Part shown: piece by piece, positions 8,220 to 33,948 of the stretch
Layout: each line of letters begins with the position of its first letter
Numbering within the stretch: the first letter of the stretch is position 1
IMG/VR virus record: IMGVR_UViG_3300035698_007205
Coordinates: 1-39,571 of that record
Origin: a virus
Reading direction: 5' to 3' (one strand)
DNA length: 39,571 bases
Position numbers and translations under genes: made by a program
The notes under the pieces: model-generated
The model's input: only the letters and a program-made list of their open reading frames with translations
Told to the model about the DNA's origin: nothing
Databases searched by the model: none

Positions 8220-9005
8220 ATGAGTATTAACACAGATTTCTTAAAAAACCGCCTCAAACAACTACAAAGCAGAAAAGGTTTACAAGCAAACGTATGAAAA
8301 CCAAAACCCGGTCCAGAAACACGAATCAGAATAGTCCCTTACAAATTTAATAGAGAAAATCCTTTTATTGAATTACAATGGCATTGGCAATTTAATGGCA
8401 AAAATATTGTATCACCAACATCTTTTGGTGAAAATGACCCAATGGTAGAATTTGCCGATAAACTTAAATCTACTGGAGAAGCAGAAGATTATAAAAGTGC
8501 CAAAGACCTATATCCTAAATTGAGAACATATGTTCCAATAGTGGTTAGAGGTGAAGAAGACCAAGGCGTAAAGTTCTGGGGTTTTGGAATTACAATTTAC
8601 GAAGCTCTTATTAAATTAATGACTGATGAAGAGTGGGGCGATATTACCCATCCTAATACAGGTAGAGATATTGTTGTTGAATTCAAGACAGCAAAAGAAA
8701 CCGGAAAGGATTTCCCACAAACAGTAATCAGACCTAGTCCAGCACAAACAAAACTTACCTCAAATGCAAAAGTACTGAAAAGTCTTTTGAACGACCAAGT
8801 AAAAATAACTGAAGTCTATAATGTTCTTAGTTATGATGAACTTAAAGACGAATTAGAAAGTTATCTTAATGGTGGTCCGACAGATGAAGGCGATTCTGGT
8901 TCTGGGGCAACTGACACTAGCGATGATTATGAAGAAGTTGAAGATAGTTCTGACGAAGATTTGGACTCGGTTATGAGTGAGTTCGATGAAATGATTGACG
9001 AATAA
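8220..9005 (+). CDS. Single-stranded DNA-binding protein, gp32-like
   Basis: A protein of 261 residues from ATG 8220 with a strong AAGGAG site. Features of the T4 gp32 family are present: VWKPKPGPETRIRIVPY near the start, NPFIELQWHW, a SPTSFGENDPMVEFADKL segment, then a compact OB-type core and a highly acidic Ser/Asp/Glu tail that in gp32 contacts other replication proteins. The Trp of the conserved WKPKPG segment is encoded by TGA while four other Trp are TGG. It coats single-stranded DNA at forks and during recombination. RecA follows directly. Confidence 0.9.
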
Positions 9006-9029
9006 TAATAATTTAATAGGGGTAAAAAA

Positions 9030-10133
9030 ATGGCTACAGATAGAGACGCATTGGCGAACGCTCTTCATGACACCTTAAACAAAAAGTATAAAACACAAAG
9101 GGTTGCTTACTTTCTTAATGAGGACATTTATACTCCCACAGATGTGAGGGACTGGTTATCAACCGGTTCCTCCGTTCTTGATTTGGCAATAGCAAATTTA
9201 CCAAATGGTGGGATTCCTTATGGTAGAATTACAGAGTTGCAGGGTTGAGAAGGTTCAGGAAAATCTTTGATTGTAGCGAAAATGCTTGCCAACAATCAAA
9301 AGGCTGGTGGAATTTCTGTATTAATAGATACAGAGACATCTGTTCATAGGGGTTTTTTAGAAGTGTCTGGCATTGACTTGGACAAGTTACTATATTTAAG
9401 ACTTAATAAGGTTGAAGATATTTTTGACACTATCGAAACGATGATAGTGAAGGTCAGAGAGAAGAATAAAGATATAAAATTGGCAATAGCGGTTGACTCA
9501 TTGGCCGGAGCTACTACAAAGATAGAGGACGAATCTAATTATAATAAAGATGGTTGGTCAACTGCCAAAGCTATTATTACTTCAAAAGCAATGAGAAAAA
9601 TGACTGACATGATAGGCTCATACAATATAGCCTTAATATTTACTCAACAATTGAGAATTAATCTTGGGGTTACTTTTGGAGATAATGCAACCACATCTGG
9701 TGGTAAGGCGTTAGGTTTCCATGCAAGCGTAAGATTAAGATTAGACAAGTCTACAAAAATATATGACAAGGAAAAGAATGTCATAGGTATTAATATTAGA
9801 GCAAAAGTAATTAAGAATAGGATGGGGCCGCCATTAAGGGTTGCCGTATTCCAAGTTTATTTCGATAGAGGTATAGATGATTATAGTTCTTGGTTATTAA
9901 CACTAAAAGAGAAAGGGGTTATATCTGTAGGCGGAGCTTGGTACTCATTAATATTAAAGGATGGTGAGGTAAAGAAATTTCAATCAAAATCTTGGGACGG
10001 AATGCTAAAAGATAAAGAAATGAAAGAGTACGTTTACGGCCTACTGTGTAAAGCTTGTATTTTAGAGTACAAGCCAGAAAAAGCTATTGACATCGACGAG
10101 ATTGAAATTTCAGAAGAAATGATTGTGGAATAA
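9030..10133 (+). CDS. recA: RecA/UvsX-type recombinase
   Basis: A protein of 367 residues. The Walker A loop is G72-W-E-G-S-G-K-S79, and its Trp73 is TGA 9246-9248. With the standard code the gene would stop inside the P-loop. Other RecA signatures are LIDTET after strand 3, AIAVDSLAG (Walker B), IFTQQLR and the DNA-binding L2 region GDNATTSGGKALGFHASVRL. Five other Trp are TGG. It catalyses strand exchange and, in T4-type phages, recombination-dependent replication. It sits between SSB and the 5' nuclease, a normal replication neighbourhood. Confidence 0.93.
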
Positions 10134-11479: not shown

Positions 11480-12790
11480 ATGACAGATACGCTGGGTAGT
11501 TTTGGCTATGCATTTCAAACAAAACTAATTACTGCTTTATTATTGGATAAGGAGTTTATAGAACAAATTAATGACGTTTTAAAAGTTAATTATTTTGATT
11601 CGGATTCTAATAAATGGATTGTTGGGAAGCAATTAGATTACTTTGAAAAATATAGGGCAACAATGTCTCTAGATGCTCTTAAAATAGAAGTAAAGAAAAT
11701 AAAGGGCGAAGTTGAAAAAACACAGGTGATTTCAACAATAAAAGATGTAATAAAAAACTTTAAGTCTACAGATTTAAATTATATTAAAGATGAAGCAATA
11801 ACATTTTGCAAAAACCAAGAAATGAAAAATGCAATATTGCAATCAGTAGACCTGCTGAAGGCTGGAAGTTATGATGCAATTCATTCATTGTTTGATGAGG
11901 TAATGAAAAAAGGACAAGTTAAAGATGTTGGTTTGGATTACAATGTTGACTTTGAAAGACGATATAATGAAGCATTAAGAAAATGTATAGTTCTGCCTTG
12001 GAATGTTCTAAATGAATTGACTGATGGCGGAATTGGTGCTGGCGAACTTGCTTGCTTTGTGGGCGGACCGGGAACTGGTAAAAGTTGGTTGTTGGCAAAT
12101 ATTGGGGCTCACGCCATAAAACTTGGGAAAAATGTATTACATTATACATTAGAATTAAAAGACAATTATACCGGACTAAGATATGATTCTCTTTTATCAG
12201 GATTTGCGACACAAGACTTAAAATATCATAAAGATAAAGTAAAAAAGGAAGTTGACAAATTAAAGGGTAAACTTACAATAAAAGAATATCCGACTTCTAC
12301 GGCAAGCATACAAACATTACAAGCTCATATTAAAAAGCATGAAACATTAAAATTTAAACCAGACCTAATAATAGTTGATTATGGCGATTTACTTTCAACT
12401 AAAGTTTCGAAAGGAATGGACAATAGTTATCATATTGGCGGCAATATCTTTGAAGAGTTAAGAGGTTTGGCTGGTATTTGGGATGTTCCATTATGGACAG
12501 CCTCCCAAGCTCAACGTTGCCATATTTTATCTGATAAAGTTATAACATTAAATGGAGAAAAAGAAATTGGCGATGTTAATGTTGGTGAAAAAATATTAAC
12601 CCACAAAGGATTCAAAAAAATATCACATAAGTTTCCAATGGAAAAACAAGCCGCATATAAAATTAAATTAAAATCTGGAAAAGAAATAACAATATCGGCA
12701 AACCATGAATTACCAGTTATGTATGGCAAATGTAAATCAATAGAAATGGGATTAAAAATTGGTGATAAACTTTTTACAAAGAAAAAATAG
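11480..12790 (+). CDS. Replicative DnaB/gp41-like helicase, N-terminal part fused to N-intein
   Basis: A protein of 436 residues behind AAGGAG. Residues 1-346 are helicase: an N-terminal helical domain, Walker A GGPGTGKS at 195-202, Walker B region LIIVDYGD near 296-303, and PLWTASQAQR, the motif preceding the DnaB arginine region. At Cys347 (12518) an intein begins. The gene then stops at TAG 12788-12790 with 90 intein residues and no C-terminal splicing motifs. The missing helicase end is in the gene at 12979, whose extein starts SSAES. Splicing in trans would give a helicase of 461 residues. Related gp41 split inteins at a similar site are known from marine metagenomes (Dassa and colleagues, 2009). 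Trp are all TGG (5). Confidence 0.92.
   Translation: MTDTLGSFGYAFQTKLITALLLDKEFIEQINDVLKVNYFDSDSNKWIVGKQLDYFEKYRATMSLDALKIEVKKIKGEVEKTQVISTIKDVIKNFKSTDLNYIKDEAITFCKNQEMKNAILQSVDLLKAGSYDAIHSLFDEVMKKGQVKDVGLDYNVDFERRYNEALRKCIVLPWNVLNELTDGGIGAGELACFVGGPGTGKSWLLANIGAHAIKLGKNVLHYTLELKDNYTGLRYDSLLSGFATQDLKYHKDKVKKEVDKLKGKLTIKEYPTSTASIQTLQAHIKKHETLKFKPDLIIVDYGDLLSTKVSKGMDNSYHIGGNIFEELRGLAGIWDVPLWTASQAQRCHILSDKVITLNGEKEIGDVNVGEKILTHKGFKKISHKFPMEKQAAYKIKLKSGKEITISANHELPVMYGKCKSIEMGLKIGDKLFTKKK
12518..12787 (+). other. N-terminal half of split intein (helicase)
   Basis: 90 residues starting with nucleophile Cys1 (CHILSDKVITLNGEKEIGDV), block A with a V-I-T-L-N-G-form hairpin. Block B is KSGKEITISANHELPV, where the usual T-x-x-H is S-A-N-H. 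It ends GLKIGDKLFTKKK, the normal end of a split N-intein. The partner is 12979-13119. Confidence 0.92.
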
Positions 12791-12794
12791 AAAT

Positions 12795-13004
12795 ATGGAT
12801 TTCAAATGCGGAAATGTAATTATAGAATATGATGGGGATTATTGACATAAAAATAAAGATTTAGATAAATTAAGAGATACCTATACAAACTCAAAGAATT
12901 ATAACACATTGAGAATAATGGGGAGCGAATATGGAAAAAACAAAAAAAAAGTAATTAGTAAATGTAAGGAGTTTATAAATGAAAATGCACAAATTAAATC
13001 CTAA
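12795..13004 (+). CDS. Minimal Vsr-like homing endonuclease between helicase halves
   Basis: An ORF of 69 residues lying exactly between the split-intein halves. It has IIEYDGDYWH (Asp13; Trp is TGA), a Lys/Asp-rich helix and TLRIMGSEYG. These align with the C-terminal catalytic core of the three larger endonucleases in the reductase (IExDGDYWH and LRFWExD). The N-terminal DNA-binding region of the larger ones is absent and the FWE motif is altered, so it is either a minimal catalytic core or a decayed remnant. No good ribosome binding site precedes ATG 12795. Its 3' end overlaps the C-intein gene by 26 bases. Confidence 0.7.
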
Positions 13005-13119
13005 AGATTTTATAATGGATGAAATAGTTTCAATAGAATTAATTGGAGACAAAGACACCGTAGATATATCTGTTGAAGACACACATATGTTTTTTGCAAA
13101 TGATATATATTCACATAAT
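12979..13119 (+). other. C-terminal half of split intein (helicase)
   Basis: 47 residues: block F TVDISVEDTHMFFANDIYSHN with the conserved H, terminal His-Asn at 13114-13119, and Ser as +1 residue. Its core SIELIGDKDTVDISVED closely resembles the C-intein at 22278 (SIELIKDDTYDIEVED), so the two split inteins are probably related copies. Confidence 0.92.
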
Positions 13120-13467
13120 TCGTCTGCCGAATCTGAAATTGTTCAAGGACATCAGGTAGCAGATAGTTATAAGAAAATTATGATTTCGGATTTTATTGTA
13201 TCATTATCAAGAACTGTTGAAGACAAGGTTGGGGGAACTGGCAGATTGCACATTATAAAGAATAGATTTGGGGCAGATGGTTTGACCTATGGCTCGTCAT
13301 TTAACGCTTCTAATGGCAATTTTGTAGTACACGATACTGTCACCGTGGAGGGTAGGAAGCAAACTGAAAAAGCATTTAAAAAGGACGGCATGAAAAGAGA
13401 ATATTATAGAAGAAAGTTTCAAGAGATAAATGATAAAACAGAGAATGATGAAGAAAAAGTTGAATAA
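12979..13467 (+). CDS. C-intein fused to helicase C-terminal part
   Basis: A protein of 162 residues from ATG 12979 behind AAGGAGTTTATAA. The first 47 residues are a C-intein ending in SHN. Residue 48 (Ser, codon 13120) begins the helicase C-extein SSAESEIVQGHQVADSYKK, which continues with VSLSRTVEDKVGGTGRLHII and the basic IKNRFGADG expected at the end of DnaB/gp41 RecA-like domains. 115 extein residues follow, with an acidic tail. The piece lacks an ATPase P-loop, so it must act after ligation to the 11480 product. There is no Trp. Confidence 0.9.
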   Translation: MKMHKLNPKDFIMDEIVSIELIGDKDTVDISVEDTHMFFANDIYSHNSSAESEIVQGHQVADSYKKIMISDFIVSLSRTVEDKVGGTGRLHIIKNRFGADGLTYGSSFNASNGNFVVHDTVTVEGRKQTEKAFKKDGMKREYYRRKFQEINDKTENDEEKVE

Positions 13468-14931: not shown

Positions 14932-15111
14932 ATGTATAAATATAAAGGTTATGTAGGTCTTGGAGATACTGGCGGATTAGTACCATTTTCTTTTGAAATG
15001 ATTCATCCAATAATGAGAAGAGAAGATATGATGTTTACAATAAGTAAATGTATTAACCAGCCAATAAATAATATTCAATGAATAGAAGAATATAACGTAA
15101 AAAAGAAATAA
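14932..15111 (+). CDS. Small hypothetical protein, 59 residues
   Basis: ATG 14932 follows the DHH stop by one base. One TGA-encoded Trp lies near the end (NNIQWIEEYNV). Stop TAA 15109-15111. The sequence starts MYKYKGYVGLGDTGGLVPF and looks beta-rich. No family is recognised. The overlap-style spacing suggests translation coupled to the DHH gene. Confidence 0.5.
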
Positions 15112-15135
15112 ATAAAATAAAAGAGGTCACAAACA

Positions 15136-15684
15136 ATGAAAATATACAACGGCATTACATTGCCTAAGTTTTACAAAACAAAACCCTATTCAGGGAAAAC
15201 AAAAAAATACTTCTATACACCCTATAAAAAACTATTTGGTAAAATATGGTTAGTAAGCTATTATAAAAAAAACTCACAATACTATAACAAGAAAGCAATA
15301 TTATTTCTGATGCGGTATGTAAAGGTTGCTATAAATGAGGTAACTAAAGTAAATAACAAACAATATATAGAAGAAAAAGATGTATCAATATTAGACAGTA
15401 AAAATACATTATTAATTAGTTGCTATTCTAAGCAAGATGGTTGTTATGTTGGAATGCCTAATAAAGTAATGAAACTTATTACTGATAAAAAAATTACACA
15501 ATTTTACGGCAATGGACAACAAGATTATGCAATAGTTGGATATTCACCAAAACAAAAAAAACTATATCATTGGAATAAATCTAATATATATGAAATACAG
15601 ACTGATGAAAAGTTGACGGCAGAAAAAATAAAAATAATAGCAAAAATGATAGAAAAGAAAGATGAAGAACAAAAAAACGATTAG
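15136..15684 (+). CDS. Basic hypothetical protein, 182 residues
   Basis: Starts ATG 15136 after AAGAGGTCACAAACA. The protein is rich in Lys and Tyr with two TGG Trp and no TGA. The N-terminal 70 residues are strongly basic (TKPYSGKTKKYFYTPYKK), which would suit nucleic acid binding; the middle has LLISCYSKQDGCYVGMPNKV. The family is not recognised. It sits immediately upstream of the reductase genes. Confidence 0.6.
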   Translation: MKIYNGITLPKFYKTKPYSGKTKKYFYTPYKKLFGKIWLVSYYKKNSQYYNKKAILFLMRYVKVAINEVTKVNNKQYIEEKDVSILDSKNTLLISCYSKQDGCYVGMPNKVMKLITDKKITQFYGNGQQDYAIVGYSPKQKKLYHWNKSNIYEIQTDEKLTAEKIKIIAKMIEKKDEEQKND

Positions 15685-15703
15685 ATATTAAAAGGAGATA
15701 AAT

Positions 15704-16570
15704 GTGTTAATGAATGACTTTCAAAAGGAAATATGAAAACAAAATTACAAGTTACCATCAGAGAACAAAATAGAAGATACATGAAGAAGAATTGCCAAGG
15801 CAGTTGCAAGTGTAGAGAAAGATAAAGAATATTGAGAAGAACAATTTTACTATTTGCTGGAAGATTTTAAGTTTGTCCCCGGAGGTAGAATAAATGCCAA
15901 CATAGGTGTTAATGGAAGAAAGGAGACTACACTGTTTAATTGTTATGTTCACAACCCAAAAGACATTGGGTTTGAAGACCCAGATTCAATTGAAGGAATT
16001 TTTGAAATGGCAAAGAAACAAGCATTAACTCTTAAGTCGGAAGGTGGTTATGGAAGTAATTTTAGTTGGCTAAGACCTGCCGGGACATATATCGCTGGCA
16101 TAGGAGCAAGAACGCCGGGAGTCTTAAAGTTTATGGAATTATGAGATAAGTCCTCTGAAATTATTACTATGGGAACCACAAAGAGACATGGCAAAATAAG
16201 AGAGTATGAAAAAATTAAAATAAGAAAGGGTGCGCAAATGGGCGTGCTGAATTGTTTTTCTAAAAATACTGAAGTTCTTACAAGTATTGGTTGAATGGAT
16301 ATTATTGATATAATTAATAAAGTTTTAGATGGTCAAAAAATATTAGCATTAGATAAGAATGGAATGCCACATGAAATATATAATCCAATAATTAAGGAAC
16401 CAGAGCAATTATACGAAATAGAAACCGAAGATGGGGCTATTCTCCAAACGACAGCAGACCACAAATTTGAGGTTTATAACATTAATACAAAAGAAACATA
16501 TCTTAAGCCAATTTGTGATATTGAAATTGATGTAGAAATGCTGACCTCATTAAATACTCAGGATGTATAA
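15704..16570 (+). CDS. nrdJ: Class II ribonucleotide reductase part A, fused to N-intein
   Basis: The start GTG 15704 is six bases after AAAGGAG (ATG 15710 is the alternative). 183 extein residues carry the reductase N-terminus: FKFVPGGRINANIG, TLFNCYV with the active-site Cys80, SEGGYGSNFSWLRPAG and RKGAQMGVLN. At Cys 16253 an intein starts within GVLN/CWHPDIEEF. The gene ends TAA 16568 after 105 intein residues. Trp: five TGA, one TGG. The class II (adenosylcobalamin) assignment rests on this N-terminus and on the Cys-rich C-terminus of part D. The downstream continuation is at 17616. This is the first of four polypeptides that make the enzyme. Confidence 0.9.
16253..16567 (+). other. N-terminal half of split intein 1 (reductase)
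   Basis: 105 residues from Cys1: CFSKNTEVLTSIGWMDI is block A, with the Trp encoded TGA; block B is ILQTTADHKFEVYN with the T-x-x-H motif (TADH). It terminates without C-terminal blocks. The partner is 17616-17750, beyond the endonuclease gene. Confidence 0.9.
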
Positions 16571-16630
16571 AATATATTTTTTTACGAAAAAAAATGACAC
16601 CCAGATATTTATATTAAAGGAGTAATTAAA

Positions 16631-17665
16631 ATGAAAAATATTAATTTTTTTGAATATAATTTATTGTCTGATAGAAATATTTTAGATAATAATAAAAACG
16701 ATTATGTTATATGTCCAATATGTAAAAAAAAAATAACATTTAATGGATGCACCTCACATTCCAAAATCCATTTTGAAATTATTAATGCTAAGAGAAATTT
16801 TATAAAAAAAAAATATAAATTTCAAAATTATTGTTATTGCGGTAATGAAATAATTGTTCCAGAGAATATGAGAGATGCTAGAAGAAAACATACTCACTTC
16901 TGTTCTAACGAATGCTTTAATGAAGCAAAGAAAATTGTTAAAAAATATTATAAAACAAAATTATTAAATAAAAAATGTATAATATGTGGCAAAAAATTTG
17001 ATGCAAAGCACGTGAAAACAAAAACATGTTCATATAATTGTTGAACAAAGTTATTATCCAAAATAACAAAAAAAACATGAGATGATAGAACAGATAGAGA
17101 AAAAGAACAAATTGCAAGGAATATATCGTCGGGCTCTATTGGCAAACAAGGATGTATTGCTTGAAATAAGGGTTTATCGGGCGATGAATATATGAACCAT
17201 TACATTAAAGAGGATGGCACAAATTCTCTTTACGAAGCATTAAAAAATAATGATAAGTGATTTAGAAAAACAAATATTGAAAAAAAATTTGAAAGTTTAT
17301 TGTTAGAATTAGACGCAAGTTATCAGTATGGATTTTTCACACAGGGCTCTCAATTTGACTTTTTAATTTCTACAAATAAATTTGTTTATATTATAGAGCT
17401 TGATGGTGATTATTGACATAAATCAAAAAGATTATTTCCAAATATAAACGATAGAAAAATGAAACGACAAGAAGATAAATTAAAAGAAAAAAAAATAGAA
17501 AATATAAAAAATACAACAAAATCTTGAATAGTATTAAGATTTTGAGAGTATGATATAAATAATAATTTTAATAAAATAGAAAAGTGAATTAATAAATTAT
17601 TAATAGGAGAAAATAATGATAAAACAATATGTGAAATTAAAAAGAATTACGCCAATTGAAGTTAA
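16631..17665 (+). CDS. Vsr-like homing endonuclease 1 (reductase split intein 1)
   Basis: A protein of 344 residues behind AAAGGAG, with nine Trp all TGA. The N-terminal 140 residues carry Cys/His clusters that look like zinc fingers: CPICKKKITF with a distal H, CYCGNEI with CSNEC, and CIICGKKFD with CSYNC. A linker with GCIAWNKGLSG resembles a DNA-contacting NUMOD-type segment. The catalytic core is IIELDGDYWHKSK (Asp258) and later VLRFWEYD, the Vsr-type pattern shared with the other three endonucleases here. It lies precisely between the two intein halves. Its end overlaps the C-intein gene by 50 bases. Expected to cut intein-free reductase alleles and spread the arrangement. Confidence 0.85.
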
Positions 17666-17750
17666 TAAGTCATATGATTTTGCAGTTAAAGATAGCCACA
17701 GAATAATAGCAAGGAAGGGAGGGACAAAATTAGGAATTTATACATCTAAT
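17616..17750 (+). other. C-terminal half of split intein 1 (reductase)
   Basis: 45 residues with block F YDFAVKDSHRIIARKGG and the end KLGIYTSN, followed by +1 Cys. The penultimate residue is Ser (codon before AAT 17748) rather than the near-universal His, although Asn and +1 Cys are intact. Some functional inteins lack this His, so activity is likely but should be tested. Confidence 0.88.
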
Positions 17751-17993
17751 TGTTGGCACCCCGACATAGAAGAGTTTATAGTTGCAAAGCAAACGGCAGG
17801 AAGATTAACTAAGTTTAATTTGTCAGTTGGCATCACAGATGGGTTTATGGAGAAAATTTCTGAACCAGATAATAAAATTACAATTAAACTCAATGATGGC
17901 AGTGTATATTACGTCAAACCGAACGAAGAGATAGAGGTCGATGGAGAGGTTATTTTGGCAAAAGATTTCAAAATAAAACAGCAAAAAAAATAA
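17616..17993 (+). CDS. nrdJ: C-intein fused to reductase part B
   Basis: A protein of 125 residues from ATG 17616 behind AATAGGAGAAAAT. 45 C-intein residues end in TSN; the extein begins CWHPDIEEFIVAKQTAGRLT then FNLSVGITDGFMEK, the expected reductase continuation. After FMEKI comes a tail unlike the usual short link: ITIKLNDGSVYYVKPNEEIE, then VDGEVILAKDFKIKQQKK and TAA 17991. The reductase resumes at 19097 as a new gene with no working intein motif at this break. The tail resembles a Hint-fold strand pattern (DG...PNEEI..DG..AKDFK), so it is either a natural insert of this reductase or a dead intein remnant. Confidence 0.85.
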   Translation: MIKQYVKLKRITPIEVNKSYDFAVKDSHRIIARKGGTKLGIYTSNCWHPDIEEFIVAKQTAGRLTKFNLSVGITDGFMEKISEPDNKITIKLNDGSVYYVKPNEEIEVDGEVILAKDFKIKQQKK

Positions 17994-18040
17994 TTATGTG
18001 ATACTTATATATGTATTACAATGTAGTATTAGGAGATACA

Positions 18041-18211
18041 ATGAATGACAAAGGAACTAAAATGGTTAGTTTGAGAATGCCCATTCCAATTTATAATTAT
18101 TTAAAAAACAAAGCTGACAAAAAATTCTCTAACGTTAGTAGAATTATTATAGATATATTAGTTGATAATTATATGGAGGATAGTGAATGCCATATTGAAA
18201 AAGAGGATTAG
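18041..18211 (+). CDS. Small ribbon-helix-helix protein beside the second reductase break
   Basis: A protein of 56 residues. ATG 18041 is chosen because TAGGAGATACA lies just upstream; ATG 18011 is in frame but lacks a site. The sequence KMVSLRMPIPIYNYLKNKAD followed by SNVSRIIIDILVDNYM is a typical CopG/Arc strand-helix-helix. Its 3' end overlaps the next endonuclease by 25 bases, so the two are probably co-translated and inserted together. It may control endonuclease expression; that is inference. Confidence 0.65.
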   Translation: MNDKGTKMVSLRMPIPIYNYLKNKADKKFSNVSRIIIDILVDNYMEDSECHIEKED

Positions 18212-19116
18212 TCCCATCCAAAAGTGACTTAGTTGCTTCAATAAATAAATTTAAATATCAAAATAAAATTTGCGAATATTATAATGTATCAACCCCCACA
18301 TTTATGAAATGAAAGAAGTTATACAGATTGAATGATTTGTTTAATTTTAAAAAGAATTCGGGAAATTGAGGCCCAAAGCCGCCAATGACAAATGTCCAAA
18401 AAAAGAAAATCAGCGAAACAAAAAAAAAGCAATATAAAAATGGAATTTGTTCAAATTTAAAATCAGAGGTGATTGAGATAATATGCCCGATATATAATGA
18501 AAAATTTTTAACAACAAATGACAGCCATAGAAGAAAAACTTGTAGTAAAATTTGTGGGAATAAATTAACTGGATTAACAAATACAAAAATTAATACATTT
18601 AACGCTATTTGCAAACAATGTGAAAAAAAAATTTATAAATATCCAAGTCAGCGTAATTCTCATACGTTTTGCTCATATGATTGTGCTAACAAATGAAGAA
18701 GAGGAAAAGATTATGAAGAATTATATGGCATTGATAAAGCAAGAGAAATAAAAACAATTATAATGAAAAAAACAATTGAAAATAATAAAAATATGCCATG
18801 AATTACTAACCCTCATATTATTCTAAAAAACAAAATGATTGAAAATAAAATTTATGATGGGTTTAAAACTTCCCAACAATTATTTTGGTTTGAAATAGAT
18901 GAATTAAATCAAAATGATAAAATATGTATTGAGGTTGATGGGGACTATTGGCATAACAGACCTAAGCAAAAAATAAACGACAAACGCAAAAACTCTTATT
19001 TGAAAAACAAAGGGTATTTAGTGTTAAGGTTTTGAGAAAATGATATTTATAATAATTTAAATAATATTATAGAAACAATTAAATTGGAGTTAAAGAATGT
19101 TAAAATTAAAAAGTAA
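18187..19116 (+). CDS. Vsr-like homing endonuclease 2 (reductase break without intein)
   Basis: A protein of 309 residues; ATG 18187 lies seven bases after GGAGGATAG. Trp: six TGA, two TGG. The N-terminal 45 residues resemble a helix-turn-helix (KFKYQNKICEYYNVSTPTFM). Then come Cys clusters (CSKICGNK, CKQCEKKIY, CSYDCANKW), a Lys-rich helix and the catalytic core CIEVDGDYWHNRP (Asp251, Trp TGG) and YLVLRFWEND (Trp TGA). It separates reductase part B from part C, where no splicing intein exists. This mirrors the mobE insertion that splits nrdA of phage Aeh1 into two functional chains. Its end overlaps the next gene by 20 bases. Confidence 0.85.
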
Positions 19117-21226
19117 AGACATAAATAAAGTATATGAAAGCGGTATGTGAGAGTTAAAATTTCCTGATACAGAATTTGAAAAATATAAAACTGAATGGGG
19201 CGGTGATTTACAAGACTGAGAATCTAAAGGTTATCCTGTAGAAGTATATAAGAAAATTAAAGCAAAAGATTTATGAGACACTATAATGATTTCTACATAT
19301 AATAGAAATGAACCCGGAGTATTATTTTTAGATTTGGCAAATAAGTTAAATACAATTCCAGAAGATGAAACAATTCAGGCAAGTAATCCCTGTATTACAG
19401 GAGACACTTTGGTTGCAGTTGCTGACGGGAGAAATGCCGTTTCAATTAAACAACTTGTAAAAGAAAATAAAGAAGTTCCTATTTATTCAGTATCAAATGA
19501 AAAAGTAGTAATAAAAACTGCAACGAAGATTTTCAAAACAAAAGAAAATGCAGAGATATTAAAAATAACACTAGATGATGACAGTACATTCAAATGTACG
19601 CCAGACCATAAAATAATGTTAAGAACTGGCAAATACATTAAAGCAATAAATTTGAAAGAAAATGATTCATTGATGCCATTTAATTCATATATTTCAAACA
19701 CAAGATATAGACAAATTTCTTCCAATACTGGTAGAGATAGAAGACAATATAGAATGATGGCAGAATATAATAATTTAATTGTAGATGTAAAAAAAACAGC
19801 AATACATCACAAAGATTTTAATAGTTTTAATGACAAGATTAATAATTTAGAAGCAATGCCCCACACAGAACATAGACATATTCACTCAACTAGAATTAAA
19901 GGAAAGAATAATCCATATTTTAGAATGACAGATGAATGGAAACATAATTTTGCTTCTCATCCGGGAGAAAAAAATGGTAGATTTTCTGGTATTTCAAATG
20001 ATGAATTAAAAAATATTATATTAACTGAAATTAAATCTAGAAAAAGACAGATTACAAAAAGTGAATATTTTGTATTATGTAATAAGTTTGGATTACCCAA
20101 ATCATTTTCAGAATTTAGAAAAAATAGTTTAGGCAAATCTCCTGTAGAATTGATAAAGGAATTAACGGTTAAAGCTGGGTTTGAAATTATACCAAAATAC
20201 AAACTTAGAAGCCTTATACATTATAACCATAAAGTCAAAAGAATTGAAAAAATAAACAATGAAGATGTTTATGATATGGTTGTTCCGGGCACAAATAATT
20301 TCGGTATAATAACAAGTTATAATGATGATAAATATATTACAAGCTCTGGAATTTTTATTCATAATTGTGGGGAAATATTAATGTCAACTGGCGTATGTAA
20401 TTTGGGTTCGTTAAATTTACCTAAATTTATAACAAAGGATGGCGTTGCTCAAAGAGCGTATTTTGATTTTGATAAATTTGAGGCATGTATTATTATTGCT
20501 ATTAGATTTTTAGATAACATTAATGATATTTCAAACACACCACTTCCAGAATATGACAAATCATTAAAAGAAAAGAGAAGAATTGGATTAGGCGTTATGG
20601 GTTTAGGTTCTTTACATTTTATGATGATGATGAAATATGGCGGGCTAAAATCACAAGAATTTACTGAAATGTTATTTAAAACGAAATCTGGTTGTGAAAT
20701 TTTGGCATCAGCAATGCTGGGAGAGGAAAAGGGGTCATTTAAGTTTTTTGATAAGGGCAAATATTTTAATACACATTGGTGGAAAAATTTACAGATACAT
20801 GAAAATATTAAAAAAAATATCGAAACAATTGGATGTATGAGAAATAGTCATAGGTCAGCAAACGCTCCAACTGGTAATTGTGTGAGAAAAAACACAAAAA
20901 TCCAAACCAAAGATGGTATAAAATCAATTGCTCAAATTTTTAGAGAAAATAAAATTGATATATCGAAAGAAGAAAAAAATCAATCCTTTATTCCAATCAG
21001 AACTACAGAAGTTAAAACTTTAAGCGGATACAAAAGAATTACTGGGCTTTATATAAATGATAATAATAAAGTATATTCTGTCAAAACAAGCAATAAAAAT
21101 AAAATCGAAGGAACAAATGAACATAAGGTTTTGGTTAAAGTAGATGAAAAAACTGCAAAATGAGTAGAATTACAAGATGTAAAAGTCGGAGACAAAATTT
21201 TATTACAAAAAAAGCACCCACACTAA
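19097..21226 (+). CDS. nrdJ: Reductase part C: extein, full HNH intein, extein, N-intein
   Basis: A protein of 709 residues from ATG 19097 behind TTGGAGTTAAAGA. Residues 17-98 are reductase (MWELKFPDTEFEKY, GDLQDWESKGYPVEVYK, STYNRNEPGVLF) up to ASNP. A 325-residue intein (19391-20365) interrupts the catalytic NP/CGE site. 171 further reductase residues follow (TGVCNLGSLNLPKF, RIGLGVMGLGSLHFMMM, NSHRSANAPTGN). Then a second N-intein begins at Cys 20879 and the gene ends TAA 21224. Trp: four TGA, four TGG. The first 16 residues (MLKLKSKDINKVYESG) have no clear counterpart in typical reductases and are probably the chain start created by the break. Confidence 0.9.
19391..20365 (+). other. Full-length intein with HNH endonuclease domain in NPCGE site
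   Basis: 325 residues spliced in cis. Cys1 starts CITGDTLVAVADGRNAVSIK; block B is DDDSTFKCTPDHKIM (TPDH). The centre has an HNH endonuclease with AIHHKDFNSFNDKINNLEAM and EHRHIHS, plus a NUMOD-type GKNNPYF. Block F is NEDVYDMVVPGTNNFGI and the end is GIFIHN with +1 Cys, which restores NPCGE with the radical-site Cys. Insertion in the most conserved active-site motif is typical of inteins. No TGA codon occurs in it. Confidence 0.93.
20879..21223 (+). other. N-terminal half of split intein 3 (reductase)
   Basis: 115 residues from Cys1 (CVRKNTKIQTKDGIKSIAQI). Block B is NKIEGTNEHKVLV, with T-x-x-H as TNEH. It ends WVELQDVKVGDKILLQKK before the stop; that Trp is TGA 21161-21163. It interrupts NAPTGN/TGIYAG; the partner C-half is 22278-22418. 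Confidence 0.92.
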
Positions 21227-21261
21227 TATATATATATATAGAATTATAAGGTAGGTGCTTT
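21211..21261 (+). promoter_or_regulatory. Hairpin enclosing the ribosome binding site of endonuclease 3
   Basis: AAAGCACCCAC (21211-21221) pairs with GTAGGTGCTTT (21251-21261) at 10 of 11 positions. The stem includes the nrdJ part C 3' end and closes two bases before endonuclease ATG 21264, so it covers the only purine-rich ribosome binding region (AAGGTAGG). The loop is a run of AT repeats. Hairpins that delay endonuclease translation are known for T4 I-TevI. The same control is inferred here. Confidence 0.65.
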
Positions 21262-21263
21262 AG

Positions 21264-22277
21264 ATGGAAAGAAAAAAAAGAGGAAAATACAAAAGTTATA
21301 AAATGAGAATATATGAGGAAAATTCTAAGGAAGTTGCAGATAAATTATGAGAAGAATATTTACTAAAAATATCTCAAAGTTTAGATGGATTTGTAAAAAG
21401 ATATGGTAAAGAGTTAGGAGAAGAAAAATATAATTTATTTATTGAAAAGTCCAAACACACAAGGGTTAAATATATTAAGAAATATGGAGAAATGTCAGGA
21501 AATGTAAAGTGAAACGCTTACATTCAGAAGAAAAAAGAAACATCCAAAAGAAGTATTAAATATTGGTTGAAAAGATATGATGGTGATTATGAATTGGCGA
21601 AAATTGCCCAATCGAATTATCAAAGAAGAGATAAAGATTTTTTTATTAAAAAATATGGTAAAGAAGATGGTCAAATAAAATACAATCGTAGAGCAGAAAA
21701 ACAAAAAAAATCAATAAATGAACATTATAAAAAAGATGGGAGCAAAGAGGCTCATGCAATTTGTATAAAGACATTTATAAACAAATGAGGTGAAGACATC
21801 GGTGAACAAAAATATAAAGAATATTTATTAAAAACATCACCTAGTATAATTTGAAATAAATCATCCATTTCAAAAGTTTCACAAGATTTTTGCAATGCGT
21901 TAGAAGATAATATTGACGAGCCGTTAAGGGAATATATAAAGTATGCTACAAAAAATAATGAATGGTGAATTTATGACTCAAACAACAGGGGATATTTTTT
22001 TTATGATTTTACTATAGTTAAATCCAATAATAAAAAAATAATAGAATTTAACGGTGATTATTGGCATGCCAACCCTCAAATTTATACCGAAAATTGAAAA
22101 CATAATGTTTTGGATATTACTGCCGAAAAAATATGAGAAAGAGATGAATATAAATATAAATTGGCACGAGAAAATGGTTTTGATATATTGGTAATATGGG
22201 AAAAAGAATGAAGAAATAATAAGGAAGACGTTATAAAAAAAAGTATTAATTTTATAAAAAATATTGAGGAGAAATAA
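21264..22277 (+). CDS. Vsr-like homing endonuclease 3 (reductase split intein 3)
   Basis: A protein of 337 residues with eight TGA and four TGG Trp. Residues 43-184 contain at least four copies of a short motif of the form F-I/V-K-K/R-Y-G-x-x-x-G-x-x-K-Y (about 43-56, 70-83, 127-140, 171-184), probably a modular DNA-reading region and different from the zinc fingers of endonucleases 1 and 2. The catalytic core is IIEFNGDYWHANP (Asn263 where the others have Asp) and ILVIWEKEW. It lies between the intein 3 halves; its TAA (22275-22277) touches the next ATG. The start ribosome site is inside a hairpin. The Asn substitution may affect metal binding or may show that the next Asp (GDY) is the catalytic one. 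Confidence 0.85.
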
Positions 22278-22418
22278 ATGGAAATAATTAATATTGAAAA
22301 TTTAGATTTAATTGAAGAAGAAATCCAATCAATTGAATTGATTAAAGATGATACATATGATATAGAGGTAGAAGATGTTCACCATTATATTTTGAATAAT
22401 GGGATTATATCTCACAAC
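22278..22418 (+). other. C-terminal half of split intein 3 (reductase)
   Basis: 47 residues with block F TYDIEVEDVHHYILNNGI and terminal SHN (His 22413-22415, Asn 22416-22418), and +1 Thr. It is closely similar to the helicase C-intein over SIELIKDDTYDIEVED. Confidence 0.92.
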
Positions 22419-23558
22419 ACTGGAATTTATGCTGGAGTAGTTTCGGGTGGAATCGAACCTGTATTTATGAAACAATATGTACGATGGTCAATGGTTAGTG
22501 ATTACGAAAAAAGAAAAATGCTTAAGAGTGGTATTGAGTTTCCAGATATAGTTAAGAACGAATGGTTTGAAACTAAAAATTTCACATTTGTTCGTAAAGG
22601 TGATGAGCAAATTTTACAAGGTACAATAGATGATATAGATTATGAGATAGATAAGAATAGAGGGCTAACAAAAGCAACTGATGTTATAGATTATGGGTAT
22701 CAATGATTATTAGATAATGAAACAGACATTAACATTGCAGAGGCTGAACATGGAGAACAGTTAGCAACGACAACCGAATTAACCGTAAGAGACCATATCA
22801 ATATCTTAAAAATAATTTCACATTATACAGACATGAATAGTAGCAAGACGGTAAATTTGCCAAATGAATACACTTATGATGACTTCAAAGGTTTATATTA
22901 TAATGCTTGGGAAAATAACATAAAGGGCTTAACAACTTACAGGGCAGGTACAATGATAGCTGTTTTAGAAAAGAAAAAAGAGATTAAAAAATATCAATCT
23001 GAATTAGAAAAGATGTTCATTGAGGCTAATGGTAATGTTATTAAAGAAGATGTTAAAATACCAACAGAATATTTTTCTAAAGGATATGTTATTAAGGATA
23101 GAAACTTAAAGAAGTGGTATTTTAATGTTGCGTTTGCCGATAGTGCCCACAAGAAGCCTTTTGCTTTCTTTATTTCAACTAATAGAAGGGCCAGAGGCGA
23201 GGTTGCAGATAACGCTATTGAGGCTCTTGAAGGATTAATTAGAAAAAATAAAATTAGTGAAAAGTTAATTGATAGGCAAAAGGCGAAATATATAAATGAG
23301 AGTAATGTTAATAGAGTTGCAAGGTCAATTAGTATGGCATTAAGACATAACATTGCTATTGCAGATATTGTTAATGTATTAGATAATTGTCATGATGGAT
23401 TTGCTACAGTATTATTTGCTACTAAAAAAATATTAAGTAAATTTATAAATGATGGAACAAAAATTAAAGGTGAAAAATGCCCAGACTGTGGCAGGCGGAC
23501 TTTAGTTTACCAAGAGGGTTGTGTAATGTGCAGTAATTGTTCGTGAACTAAATGTTAG
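22278..23558 (+). CDS. nrdJ: C-intein fused to reductase part D (C-terminal part)
   Basis: A protein of 426 residues from ATG 22278, directly after endonuclease 3 and behind GAGGAG. 47 C-intein residues end SHN; the extein starts at Thr 22419 (TGIYAGVVSGGIEPVFMKQY), a conserved reductase barrel segment. 379 extein residues follow, with NEYTYDDFKGLYYNAWENNI, GLTTYRAGT and a C-terminus CPDCGRRTLVYQEGC then CSNCSWTKC. That Cys-rich ending is typical of NrdJ class II enzymes and provides the shuttle thiols. Trp: two TGA (22704-22706 and 23544-23546, the latter in the terminal Cys cluster), four TGG. Stop TAG 23556-23558. Parts A-D sum to about 911 extein residues. Confidence 0.92.
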
Positions 23559-23567
23559 GAGGTTGTT

Positions 23568-23822
23568 GTGAAATTTATTGCTGTAGTTGGTAGGAATAAT
23601 AGTCAGGCAAGTTATTGGATACATATAGGCGTTGACCCCAAAACTCTTGTCGTTAATAATAAGACAGAAATTGTATATGAAAATGGTGATACATATTTTA
23701 TAGTAAATAGTATACATGATTTGCATGGCATGAATATAGATGAATATATGATATTAGAAGGCGCCAGAGATAGAGAAGATTATAAAGAGTTGATAAGAGA
23801 ACTTGAATATAGGAAAAAATAA
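23568..23822 (+). CDS. Hypothetical protein, 84 residues
   Basis: Starts GTG 23568 with TAGGAGG directly upstream (the TAG is the reductase stop). The protein has a beta-rich N-terminal half (MKFIAVVGRNNSQASYWIHI) and an acidic/basic helical end. One Trp, TGG. The TAA overlaps the next ATG by one base, suggesting translational coupling. The family is not recognised. Confidence 0.55.
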   Translation: MKFIAVVGRNNSQASYWIHIGVDPKTLVVNNKTEIVYENGDTYFIVNSIHDLHGMNIDEYMILEGARDREDYKELIRELEYRKK

Positions 23823-24259
23823 TGAAAGATTATAAAGAGTACAAAAAGAAAGTAACCGTTATGGCAAAATTATTTGAAGAGGGTGACGAAGATGGAGTGA
23901 ATTGTTTACGAGACCGTGATTTTTGTTATTATTTAGAGAATCAAGAAAAATACAAGAAATGTGATAAATGTACTGCCCCAGTCAAAATAAAACCATACAT
24001 ATCAACATTAGAGAATCAAATGCATTTTGGGTTTTGGGAAGATAATTATATATGCATTGGTCCCAAAAATGAAAGATGACTTGTTAGAAAAGATATATTT
24101 GAAGAAACTTATGAGGAGATACCAAAGGTTATTATTGATAAAGAGCCCACCCAAAGGGTAGATGTTTTAGAGCTTATGAAGGCTTGCGGAGATGTCACTA
24201 AAGAAGAAATAGAAGAACTAAAACAACTCAAAATGGATAAATTTTATTCAAATATGTAA
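23822..24259 (+). CDS. Hypothetical Cys-containing protein, 145 residues
   Basis: ATG 23822 overlaps the previous stop. TGA 24077-24079 is read as Trp, extending the protein by 60 residues to TAA 24257-24259. Residues 35-70 have CYYLENQEKYKKCDKCTAPV, a possible zinc site with too few clear ligands to assign. The C-terminal region is acidic and helical. No family is recognised. Confidence 0.6.
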
Positions 24260-27755: not shown

Positions 27756-29156
27756 ATGAAAGAACAAAAACTACAAGAAATAATCCAAAAACTTCAAGAT
27801 ATCATTTCAGAAACTGTCTTTGAAAATCATGTATTTATTGTTGGTGGCGCAGTTAGAGATTATATTTTAAAAAGAGATATTAACGATATTGACATTGTAG
27901 TTGATTTGCCTATGGGTGGGGTTGGATTTGCTGAGTGGATTACAAGAAAACTTGGTGTTTACAAAAAAGATTCAAATCCTCTTTTATACGGTAGATTTGG
28001 TACGGCACAATTTAGAGTACTTGATGTTGAATTTGAAGCTGTTATGAGTAGACAAGAAGCTTATGAATACGGTTCAAGAAAACCTGCTGTTAAGTTTGGA
28101 ACTATTGAGCAAGATGTTTACCGTAGAGATTTTACTATTAATTCATTACTATTAAATGTTTCAGACGGAAATCTTTACGACAAAACTACTATGGGGTTGT
28201 CTGATTTACGTAATAGAACTTTAAGAACAACTTCTCATCCAAAATCTATTTTTTCAGAAGACCCATTGAGAATGTTGAGGGCCGCAAGATTTGTTGGGCA
28301 ATTATCTCCAATGACTACCCAAAAAAATCTTCAATTCAATATTGGCGAAGATGTTGTTAAAGCAATGATTTCTAAAGCAAAAGAAATTAAGAACATTTCA
28401 AAAGAAAGAATTAGTGCGGAATTAACAAAGATGCTACTATCAGATAACCCAGCAATGGGAATTGATATTTTAGTTTTTACTGGTGTTATGAATCATATCA
28501 TTCCCGAATTGGTTCAGTTAGTTGATATGAAGCAAAACAAATATCATCACCTAGATGCCTATAAACATACAATGGTGGTTGTTATGAGAAGTCAAAAAAC
28601 TTTAGTTTCAAGACTTTCCGCTTTATTTCACGATATTGGAAAATCTCAAACTGCTGTACAAAAAGAAGATGGTGAGTTTTCATTTATTAATCACGAAAAT
28701 ATTGGTGCTGAAATTGCTATGCGAATTCTCACTGAATTAAAATTTCCTAATGTTATTGTTAATAGTGTTTGCAAAGTTATCAAGATGCATATGATTACAA
28801 AGAATTGGGGAGATGACCTTGAAAATGTTACTGACAAATCTATTAGAAAGTTAGTAAAGAAAGCTGGCGATGATTTGGGCGACTTATTATCTGTAATTGA
28901 CGCAGACAACAAGGCACACACTCCAGAGCATGTTATGAAAAATCAGGTTGCTGAAATCAGAAGCAGACTTTTAACTATTAAAGAAAGAAAAGAACCCGTC
29001 GAAATGCCCGTTAGTGGGCATGATGTTATGAGCTTTTTTAACCTAAAGGCTGGCCAGAAAATTGGCGAACTACTTAAAATCGCAGAAGATATTTTTTTAG
29101 GAAATCCAACTATTTCTAAAGATGATTTGTTAAATAAAATTAAAGAACAAGATTAA
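27756..29156 (+). CDS. cca: CCA-adding enzyme / tRNA nucleotidyltransferase with HD domain
   Basis: A protein of 466 residues. The nucleotidyltransferase head has FIVGGAVRDYIL and DINDIDIVVD (G-G-x-V-R-D and D-x-D). RRDFTINSLLLNV and EDPLRMLRAARFV are the class II motifs that select CTP and ATP. Residues about 270-400 form an HD phosphohydrolase domain with LSALFHDIGKSQ. It rebuilds or adds the 3' CCA of tRNAs, and HD-containing forms can also have phosphatase activity. Two TGG, no TGA. Its codon use looks somewhat less A/T-ended than that of neighbours (more CTT and CGT), hinting at separate acquisition, though I did not measure this. It may maintain a suppressor tRNA or defend tRNAs against 3' trimming. 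Confidence 0.92.
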   Translation: MKEQKLQEIIQKLQDIISETVFENHVFIVGGAVRDYILKRDINDIDIVVDLPMGGVGFAEWITRKLGVYKKDSNPLLYGRFGTAQFRVLDVEFEAVMSRQEAYEYGSRKPAVKFGTIEQDVYRRDFTINSLLLNVSDGNLYDKTTMGLSDLRNRTLRTTSHPKSIFSEDPLRMLRAARFVGQLSPMTTQKNLQFNIGEDVVKAMISKAKEIKNISKERISAELTKMLLSDNPAMGIDILVFTGVMNHIIPELVQLVDMKQNKYHHLDAYKHTMVVVMRSQKTLVSRLSALFHDIGKSQTAVQKEDGEFSFINHENIGAEIAMRILTELKFPNVIVNSVCKVIKMHMITKNWGDDLENVTDKSIRKLVKKAGDDLGDLLSVIDADNKAHTPEHVMKNQVAEIRSRLLTIKERKEPVEMPVSGHDVMSFFNLKAGQKIGELLKIAEDIFLGNPTISKDDLLNKIKEQD

Positions 29157-29167
29157 GGAGTAATCTT

Positions 29168-29851
29168 ATGAAAGAAAAGATTAAGATTAAAAAACAATGG
29201 ACCATGGCAATTGATATTGACGCCCAAAAAGGATTTACTTCAATTTGTCCAGATGAGTTGCCAGTTAAAAATGGCGACAGAATAGTCCCAGAGCTCAATG
29301 CTAATGCTGAGTTTGCCTCATTAAGAATTGGAAGTAAAGATTGGCACCCAACTACAGCAGTTTGGATTGCTGACGAAGAAAACCCAATATTTTCCGAGAT
29401 TAATGGACATGGATTAAATGTTGATATTAGATGGCCGGCCCACTGTCTTGGCGGAACCAAGGGTGCCGAGTTGTTAGATGGACTGCCAGAGCCAAACGAA
29501 TATGACTTTTTTATTTGGAAGGGTATGGAGCCTAACTTACACCCGTATGGTATTTTTTATCATGACTTGGAAGAGCAATTGTCAACGGGTATGATGGAGT
29601 ATTTATTGGCAAATATTGAAATTGATACATTTCTCGTTGGGGGACTTGCCACTGATTATTGTGTTTATGAGACAACAAAACAACTGCTAAAATTCTTAGA
29701 GGATTCTGGTGAATTTGATTGCAGAGTAATTCTAAATCTTAAAGCGACCAAGGGTGTTGATTCGGCCTCTACCGCAAAAGCTTTAGAACACTTAAAGGGT
29801 TTGGGGGTTATCTTTATTAAAGACACTTCTGAGCTTGAATTAGACGAATAA
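29168..29851 (+). CDS. pncA: Nicotinamidase
   Basis: A protein of 227 residues from ATG 29168 behind AAGGAGTAATCTT. The isochorismatase-fold triad of PncA is complete: Asp18 in AIDIDAQKGF, Lys118 in FIWKGMEPNL, Cys165 in GGLATDYCVYET. Zinc ligands Asp58 and His60 (DWHP) and His92 (WPAHC) are present. It hydrolyses nicotinamide to nicotinate. With PncB (34590) and NadE (31364) in the same block, it starts the Preiss-Handler route to NAD. Five TGG Trp. Closed by a terminator. Confidence 0.9.
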   Translation: MKEKIKIKKQWTMAIDIDAQKGFTSICPDELPVKNGDRIVPELNANAEFASLRIGSKDWHPTTAVWIADEENPIFSEINGHGLNVDIRWPAHCLGGTKGAELLDGLPEPNEYDFFIWKGMEPNLHPYGIFYHDLEEQLSTGMMEYLLANIEIDTFLVGGLATDYCVYETTKQLLKFLEDSGEFDCRVILNLKATKGVDSASTAKALEHLKGLGVIFIKDTSELELDE

Positions 29852-29863
29852 TATATGCAAATG

Positions 29864-29905
29864 AAATGGCGTTAAAACTATATTATTTTAACACCATTTT
29901 TTATT
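29864..29905 (+). terminator. Rho-independent terminator after pncA
   Basis: AAATGGCGTTAAAA (29864-29877) pairs with TTTTAACACCATTT (29886-29899) with one mismatch, loop CTATATTA, and is followed by a T-rich run. It ends the P2 transcript between pncA and dut. Confidence 0.8.
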
Positions 29906-29935
29906 TAATTTTTAAAAAATAAAGGAGAAATATTA

Positions 29936-30397
29936 ATGTATCATAGTAGAACAAATGTACCTATTAAGATTATAAACACGTCAAGCAATCCATTGCCAAA
30001 ATATGCTAAGGATGATGACTCTGGTATGGATGTCAGAGCAAACGAAGATTATCAATTAGTTGGCGGAGAAACACATGCGATTGCAACTGGAATATATGTA
30101 GAAATTCCAGAAGGTTATGGAATAGAAATAATGTCAAGAAGTGGGTTGGCGTTGAACAAACAGGTTTTTGTATTAAATGCACCCGGAATAATTGACAGTG
30201 TATACAGGGGTGAAATTAAAATTATATTACATAACGCTAATTCAGACTATATACGTAACAATTTTTCAATCAAGAAGGGTGACAGAATCGCCCAACTTAT
30301 ATTGAAAAAAATTCCCAAAATAAAATGGGAAGAGGTTGACAAATTATCAGAAACTAATAGGGGCGATGGTGGCTTTGGGCATACGGGCGTTAAATAA
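29936..30397 (+). CDS. dut: dUTPase
   Basis: A protein of 153 residues with all five trimeric dUTPase motifs: DDSGMDVRA, MSRSGLALNK, APGIIDSVYRGEI (catalytic Asp), KKGDRIAQLIL and RGDGGFGHTG. It hydrolyses dUTP to dUMP, keeping uracil out of DNA and feeding dTMP synthesis. AAAGGAGAAATATTA precedes the ATG. One TGG. It follows the terminator and has no visible promoter of the TTGACA type, so its transcription source is unclear. Confidence 0.95.
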   Translation: MYHSRTNVPIKIINTSSNPLPKYAKDDDSGMDVRANEDYQLVGGETHAIATGIYVEIPEGYGIEIMSRSGLALNKQVFVLNAPGIIDSVYRGEIKIILHNANSDYIRNNFSIKKGDRIAQLILKKIPKIKWEEVDKLSETNRGDGGFGHTGVK

Positions 30398-30426
30398 AAA
30401 TATATTATATACATAAAAAATAAATT

Positions 30427-30458
30427 CTGTATATTTATATACAGACCATATCGTGGTC
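30427..30458. repeat. Two adjacent inverted repeats before the GIY-YIG gene
   Basis: CTGTATAT/ATATACAG (30427-30444) is a perfect 8-base inverted repeat. It is followed at once by GACCA-TATCG-TGGTC (30444-30458), a 5-base stem. They may terminate the dut transcript, form control hairpins for the endonuclease as in T4, or mark its insertion site. Confidence 0.5.
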
Positions 30459-30482
30459 AATAAATTATAGAGGAGATTTTTT

Positions 30483-31295
30483 ATGTATATTTATAAAACA
30501 ACAAATATAATAAATAATAAAATTTATATAGGCAAAACATTATACAAGAATGATAAATATTTTGGCTCTGGCGCCGTATTAAAACGGGCCATTAAGAAAT
30601 ATGGTAAGGAAAATTTTATAAAAGAAATTTTATGTGAATGTAAATCAAATGATGAATTAAATGAAAGGGAAATATATTGAATTAAAAAATTAAATTCACA
30701 AAATTACACAGTTGGGTATAATATATCAGCAGGTGGCGACGGCGGGGCTTTGTTTAAGGGACATCATCATACTAACGAATCACGTTTGAGAATGTCAAAA
30801 ACTCACAAACAACAAATAAAAGAAAATGGGCATAATATGATTGGGTTTAAATTTAGTGATAAATCAAAAAGAAAAATGAATCTTAATAGAATTGGAAAAT
30901 TTGCTGGCGCTAAAAATGGTATGTACGGAAAACATCATAGTATTGAATCAAGAAAAAAAATGAGTCGTCCGCAATTCGGCAACAAAAACGGTATGTACGG
31001 AAAACATCATAGTGATGAATCTAAGGCGAAAATATCAAAAAAAATGATAGGTGAAAACAATCCATTTTACGGAAAACATCATAGTGACGAATCTAAGGCG
31101 AAAATAAGTAAAAGCCGATTAGGAAAATATTTTGGGAAAAAAAACATACAAATTATTATTAATGGGGTTATTTATTTCTCTGCCGGCGTGGCATCCAGTA
31201 TATTGGGAATAAAAAAAGCAACCATTAGTTCTAGAGTAAAATCTAAATCAAAACAATTTGAACAATATAAATTGTATGTCAAGAATGAAATATAA
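30483..31295 (+). CDS. Free-standing GIY-YIG homing endonuclease
   Basis: A protein of 270 residues. The N-terminal GIY-YIG nuclease reads MYIYKTTNIINNKIYIGKT with a following Arg/Glu-rich core (ELNEREIYWIKKL, whose Trp is TGA 30678-30680, the only Trp). The C-terminal half holds tandem NUMOD3-type repeats, GMYGKHHS-E-S-K/R-K, at least three times, and a helix-turn-helix-like end. The repeats are also near-identical as DNA (TACGGAAAACATCATAGTGA recurs). It is a typical mobile endonuclease sitting between dut and nadE, and with 36240 and 36562 one of three genes in this block that use TGA. Confidence 0.9.
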
Positions 31296-31304
31296 AAGAA
31301 ATAA

Positions 31305-31345
31305 TTGACAAATTTTCTAAAAATACTATTATAGCAATATAAATA
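31305..31345 (+). promoter_or_regulatory. Sigma70-like promoter P3 with downstream box
   Basis: TTGACA 31305-31310, 16 bases, TATTAT 31327-31332, followed by AGCAATATAAATA. It drives nadE. Confidence 0.85.
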
Positions 31346-31363
31346 AAAAGTGAGGGAGAAAAA

Positions 31364-32254: not shown

Positions 32255-32259
32255 AAGAT

Positions 32260-32300
32260 TTGACAAAAAAACCTAAAACATTATTATAGTAATGTAAATA
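32260..32300 (+). promoter_or_regulatory. Sigma70-like promoter P4 with downstream box
   Basis: TTGACA 32260-32265, 16 bases, TATTAT 32282-32287, followed by AGTAATGTAAATA. It drives the metallophosphoesterase and Nudix genes. Confidence 0.85.
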
Positions 32301-32331
32301 AAGAGCAAAAAAAATAAAAGGAAAAAATAAA

Positions 32332-33637: not shown

Positions 33638-33658
33638 AAAAATAAGGGAGAGTTACTA

Positions 33659-33928: not shown

Positions 33929-33948
33929 AATAAAAAAGGGAGATTAAA

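Follow-up and report, generated by a model that had tools for sequence, protein, structure and literature searches.

The nrdJ locus and its interruptions

The window analysed here is the entire 39,571-base IMG/VR record IMGVR_UViG_3300035698_007205, a fragment whose completeness is not established. It carries phage replication genes (a RecA-type recombinase, a 5'-3' exonuclease and DnaB). Reading TGA as Trp (genetic code 4) is required for the window genes to stay open, and under this code a class II ribonucleotide reductase (RNR) gene, nrdJ, is found as four co-linear open reading frames (ORFs): A (15704–16570), B (17616–17993), C (19097–21226) and D (22278–23558). A preliminary description of this DNA, made from the sequence alone, had proposed a reductase encoded as four genes, and all four ORFs do match NrdJ/RNR profiles. 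NrdJ_Z is the best profile in A and C and the second best in B and D, with per-piece scores under the whole-protein cutoff, as expected of fragments. A GGAG-type ribosome-binding site precedes each of the four pieces, the Shine-Dalgarno (SD) sequence of A being aaaggagataaat. One nuclease-like ORF (V1, V2 and V3) lies in each of the three gaps, and the 3' end of V1 overlaps the start of B.

Fractured genes are cut at a conserved site, with the N-terminal half of an intein (IntN) on one part, the C-terminal half (IntC) on the other and a nuclease ORF between them; RNR genes are a frequent target. This is the arrangement at sites 1 (A–B) and 3 (C–D) of the window nrdJ, where complementary IntN and IntC halves are found at the same extein position with a nuclease ORF in the gap. 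Both are fractured-gene sites on this basis, with trans-splicing itself a prediction. Intein 1 (end of A and start of B) matches the Npu DnaE intein across both halves and intein 3 (end of C and start of D) matches the Pho RadA intein across both halves, and neither gave a match to the solved NrdJ-1 intein in these searches. The lengths of the halves (Table 1) are comparable to those of ordinary natural split inteins (PMC12707363). The cis intein of C starts with Cys1 and ends with His-Asn before a Cys, exactly between NP and CGE of the NPCGE motif, and shares 43% identity with its counterpart at this position in LR756501.1. The preliminary description had recognized all three elements, namely the split inteins at A–B and C–D and a full HNH intein within C.

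The closest relative, contig IMGVR_UViG_3300031227_000348 (L005/L036; code 4), is 77% identical to the window over the spliced protein. Fractures 1 and 3 are common to both, with orthologous inteins and nucleases (71–74% identity). In the window, IntN is negative and IntC positive at site 1, and the reverse holds at site 3 (Table 1); the relative keeps this polarity (IntN/IntC −11/+7 at site 1 and +11/−10 at site 3). As the capture of split-intein halves is driven by charge complementarity (PMC12707363), the opposite polarity should favour correct pairing and help each half to find its own partner. A further split intein, in dnaB, has charges of +9/−6 and hence the same polarity as site 3, so that cross-reaction with site 3 is possible. 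This DnaB-like helicase gene (11480–13467) is likewise fractured (IntN 12518–12787, IntC 12979–13119), with an 81-aa nuclease remnant (12759–13004) between the intein halves. The dnaB split intein matches gp41-1 (6QAZ, E 1e-18), and dnaB of the closest relative is uninterrupted and without an intein.

V2 is clearly Vsr-like by its match (E 1.4e-5) to 3R3P, a solved homing nuclease chain that we take to be I-Bth0305I. V1 shares the V2 core (ELDGDYWH; 42%) and gave no Pfam or PDB match of its own and no match among named phages. V3 matches an annotated "VSR endonuclease" of Tenacibaculum phage PTm1, with a Pfam match below cutoff, and its copy in the closest relative carries one in-frame stop. 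A Vsr-like gene had been suggested for each gap; a nuclease-like ORF is indeed present in all three, with V1 and V3 tied to the Vsr type by weaker links. The predicted structures of V1 and V2 were not used, as their confidence was too low (predicted local distance difference test, pLDDT, of 39 and 33). The small ORF ahead of V2 probably starts at the ATG at 18041.

Table 1. Features of the fractured nrdJ locus (positions in the window).
Feature	Position	Strand	Remarks
A extein, NrdJ residues 1–183	15704..16252	+	GTG start or ATG at 15710
IntN of split intein 1	16253..16567	+	105 aa, Cys1, block B TADH, net charge −12
V1, free-standing nuclease-like ORF, A–B gap	16631..17665	+	ELDGDYWH core
IntC of split intein 1	17616..17750	+	45 aa, YTSN end then Cys+1, net charge +7
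B native extein, NrdJ residues 184–216	17751..17849	+	CWHPDIEEF...GFM
B foreign tail	17850..17990	+	47 aa, EKISEPDNKITIKLNDG...QQKK; absent from all relatives
Small Arc/ribbon-helix-helix-like ORF, B–C gap	17996..18211	+	weak Arc-like repressor match
V2, Vsr-like homing-endonuclease-type ORF, B–C gap	18187..19116	+	3R3P match; unique to this contig
C leader, 9 extra aa	19097..19123	+	MLKLKSKDI; own SD ttggagttaaaga
C native extein part 1, NrdJ residues 217–305 to ...NP	19124..19390	+	alignment to relatives
Complete cis intein in NP^CGE	19391..20365	+	325 aa, HNH-type insert
C native extein part 2, NrdJ residues 306–476	20366..20878	+	CGE...PTGN
IntN of split intein 3	20879..21223	+	115 aa, Cys1, block B TNEH, net charge +11
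V3, VSR-type endonuclease ORF, C–D gap	21264..22277	+	match to annotated phage VSR endonuclease
IntC of split intein 3	22278..22418	+	47 aa, SHN end then Thr+1, net charge −12
D extein, NrdJ residues 477–855	22419..23555	+	C-terminal Cys-rich tail

Completeness of the reductase and history of its fractures

The exteins had been taken to make a full NrdJ of about 911 residues. This number is the sum of every extein letter after virtual splicing, but alignment to 12 intact or spliced phage relatives gives a native chain of 855 residues (854 in the nearest relative), and the other 56 are extra, 47 of them in the tail of B and 9 in the leader of C. No native residue is missing or misaligned at the junctions, which are gap-free against intact relatives; this was the outcome of the extein alignment that had been suggested as a check.

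Among solved proteins, Thermotoga maritima NrdJ (1XJE, E 1e-57) comes closest to the spliced reductase. The class II signature is present, with LFNC (the N-terminal redox Cys, in the A extein), NPCGE, GVCNLG (the second redox Cys) and the C-terminal Cys-rich tail, and homology extends across the full catalytic barrel with NrdJ as the best match. Across 11 other relatives 173 positions are invariant, of which 166 are retained in the window and 167 in its near relative; in no segment is either of the two further from the outgroups than the other. Purifying selection is seen in the exteins, the split-intein halves and both shared nucleases, where nonsynonymous divergence (dN) is 0.02–0.29 against a synonymous divergence (dS) of 0.7 to >2 (saturated). 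The data favour a reductase that is maintained as an enzyme, its activity being suggested by this constraint.

In the closest relative the order is A, V1, a fused B–C, V3 and D, and the NPC site holds a different mini-intein, unrelated in size to the cis intein of the window. This corresponds to a three-segment design, A + (IntC1-BC-IntN3 with the mini-intein) + D, from which a single mature chain would need two trans-splicing events and one cis-splicing event. Other relatives have intact, intein-free NrdJ (L006, L029, L037, L038, L039, L041 and L045), an HNH intein at NPC as the sole interruption (L028, L043 and L044) or a different intein inside the LFNC motif (L047). In L006 an HNH-type ORF (8852–9856) directly follows nrdJ and ends in a second NrdJ C-terminal Cys-rich tail.

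Fracture 3 is also found further away. NrdJ of the 462-kb uncultured phage LR756500.1 is cut at the identical point, just ahead of the PTG-motif Thr, and comes with a split intein homologous to intein 3 (IntN 33%, E 7e-15; IntC 54%, E 4e-13) and a V3-family nuclease. Its exteins are only 27–29% identical to those of the window. A homologous intein and nuclease despite such distant exteins is what horizontal movement of the fracture unit at site 3 would look like.

The break between B and C

No intein junction was found at B–C: the 9-residue leader of C has no Cys, Ser or Thr at +1 and no Asn-Cys/Ser/Thr junction, in agreement with the earlier view that this site has no working intein. A group I or II intron was not found either, as Rfam gave no match in positions 15000–24000, even at E up to 5. 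The B–C position is uninterrupted in 121 loci, which represent 111 distinct contigs after removal of duplicates by contig name, and this makes the break apparently private to this phage among the relatives searched. It lies at a cluster of alignment gaps relative to the Thermotoga NrdJ, suggesting a tolerant loop of variable length. With a nuclease ORF inserted, the site empty in relatives and neither intron nor intein seen, the simplest account is a genes-in-pieces break like that in nrdA of Aeromonas phage Aeh1.

Successive homing-nuclease invasions, by presumably mobile nucleases, would then have shaped this class II nrdJ. After translation, intein 1 would ligate A to B and intein 3 would ligate C to D, and the HNH cis intein would excise itself from C at the NPCGE active-site motif. 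At B–C, V2 would have cut the reading frame without an intein, leaving the 47-residue tail on B and the 9-residue leader on C. The resulting A+B (183 + 33 + 47 = 263 aa) and C+D (9 + 89 + 171 + 379 = 648 aa) would associate without a peptide bond, much as the split NrdA of Aeh1. Two chains, and not the single spliced enzyme of the preliminary description, are expected after all splicing. We regard such a course, from a fractured nrdJ through two trans- and one cis-splicing events to two associating chains, as probable.

Several points weigh against this reading. At the break, the invariant A218 has become K, and the 47-residue tail of B could impair folding. The B–C break is possibly recent, and most of the constraint, for which a single relative was the reference, could be older than it. 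Ser, and not His, precedes the terminal Asn of IntC1, although the near relative is identical there. Finally, another reductase could be encoded elsewhere in the incomplete genome. The second intact reductase that had been named as counter-evidence was not found on the record, itself a fragment, where searches gave no class I small subunit (PF00268, the NrdB radical-generating subunit) and no class III enzyme.

Part of this evidence would also fit a fresh inactivating insertion of V2 at B–C, leaving a dying or dead reductase in a phage that uses the host enzyme. In favour of this are a break seen in this contig alone, the lack of close relatives for V2 and the B tail, and the loss of the invariant Ala right at the break. 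C nevertheless has its own SD and an ATG nine codons before the first native residue, and the gene shows neither further stops or frameshifts nor a surplus of lost invariant residues. The window and its near relative are equally far from the outgroups in each segment. Loss in a single lineage would be expected to add disabling changes over time. We consider inactivation unlikely.

It is more doubtful still that B and C are joined after all, be it through an RNA intron around V2 that escaped detection or through a third split intein, now degenerate, with the B tail as what is left of its N-half. Introns often house nuclease genes, and in likeness to the block-B strand pair of inteins the B tail ranks 4th of 2001 sequences (2000 of them shuffles), a weak signal that would be compatible with an intein remnant. 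Block A and the catalytic His are both absent from the tail, however, and it has no database match in family and phage searches. The lack of an intron family match and of a junction in the C leader speaks against joining as well, and B–C lies in a loop that is not conserved, which sets it apart from the sites of inteins. A third split intein was rejected as a candidate for B–C on its missing junction residues and a tail that is only weakly block-B-like. The least credible explanation is misassembly or a wrong genetic code, which a single metagenomic contig with many in-frame TGA codons might invite, since the independent contig of the closest relative repeats this gene order, fractures 1 and 3 included, 6 of the 9 in-frame TGA codons in the exteins fall on mostly-Trp columns of TGA-free relatives, as TGG codons do, none of A, B, C and D terminates in TGA and V2 has an open reading frame with its own SD.

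The fractured, two-chain reductase may also be seen in a wider frame, as a natural multi-segment assembly line in which four products, two mutually exclusive split inteins of reversed polarity, a cis intein and a non-covalent joint come together, and in which independently mobile fractures have accumulated in one gene. For this extended view we see the chances as roughly even.

Elsewhere in the window an NAD (nicotinamide adenine dinucleotide)-salvage-like cluster was observed at 27756–35771. It includes an NAD synthase (31364–32254) and a nicotinate phosphoribosyltransferase (from about 34584), both by Pfam, and a nicotinamidase-like ORF (29168–29851) that was assigned by eye only. Pfam also identified a tRNA nucleotidyltransferase-type gene (27756–29156) in this region. 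A further free-standing homing-nuclease-type gene (GIY-YIG with NUMOD3) lies at 30483–31295. No tRNA was found on the 39,571-base fragment. A scan of genome contigs with D found no relative, and the NrdJ profile retrieved mostly contigs of Bdellovibrio metagenome-assembled genomes (38–47% identity), which give no host clue for a phage with TGA as Trp.

Comparison with known systems

The founding paper on fractured genes, in which split inteins go together with Vsr-like homing nucleases, is reportedly that of Dassa et al. in 2009 in Nucleic Acids Research (NAR; see PMC3653736 and PMC10448857). Sites 1 and 3 show this arrangement, with split-intein halves and a free-standing nuclease in the gap, whereas the window nrdJ combines two fractures with a cis intein and an intein-less break and reads TGA as Trp. 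LR756500.1 has the fracture at site 3 only.

For the B–C break a parallel is nrdA of phage Aeh1, which is split by mobE without splicing and is functional (PMC2988022). In both cases a nuclease gene lies within an RNR coding sequence, apparently without splicing in the window, and two chains are expected to rebuild the enzyme. Aeh1 differs in having a class I NrdA, an HNH-type MobE, a single break and no inteins, while the window has a class II enzyme in which the intein-less break is flanked by predicted splicing events on either side. The RNR gene nrdE of Brochothrix phage A9 is likewise divided into four ORFs by interruptions of more than one kind, but these are three introns and an intein-encoded endonuclease (PMC3653736), and thus a matter of RNA splicing and not of trans protein splicing. 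The split nrdJ of Thermus phage YS40 was rejected as an instance of the same break, as it is broken near the C-terminus, at a different site.

A similar mixture is found in the DNA polymerase B of Tenacibaculum phage PTm1 (AP019524.1; L050 1318–7645), which is in three pieces. One break is of the split-intein type (ORF-239 / VSR ORF-240 / ORF-241), with a VSR ORF homologous to V3, and the other is intein-less (ORF-236 / 237–238 / 239) and adjoins the nuclease-like ORF-238. It differs from the window in the gene affected, the three pieces, the lack of a cis intein and the standard code.

The preliminary description knew of no reductase with so many breaks of three different kinds in one gene, but heavily interrupted phage reductases, those of A9 and Aeh1, are already on record. 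In the open-licence PubMed Central (PMC) literature, no reductase was found that unites a pair of split inteins, an intein in cis and a break lacking an intein. Every element is already known from fractured genes, NPC inteins and genes-in-pieces RNRs; the combination, together with the conserved opposite charge polarity, appears to be new.

Protein engineers, who at present design three-segment ligation by hand (PMC12707363), may find an orthogonal pair in the two split inteins. The closest relative, which lacks only the B–C break, provides a clean before/after pair. Trans protein splicing and non-covalent reassembly, two known escape routes, would here stand side by side in one protein, and the locus bears on how far an essential gene can be fragmented by selfish nucleases with the rebuilt enzyme still under selection.

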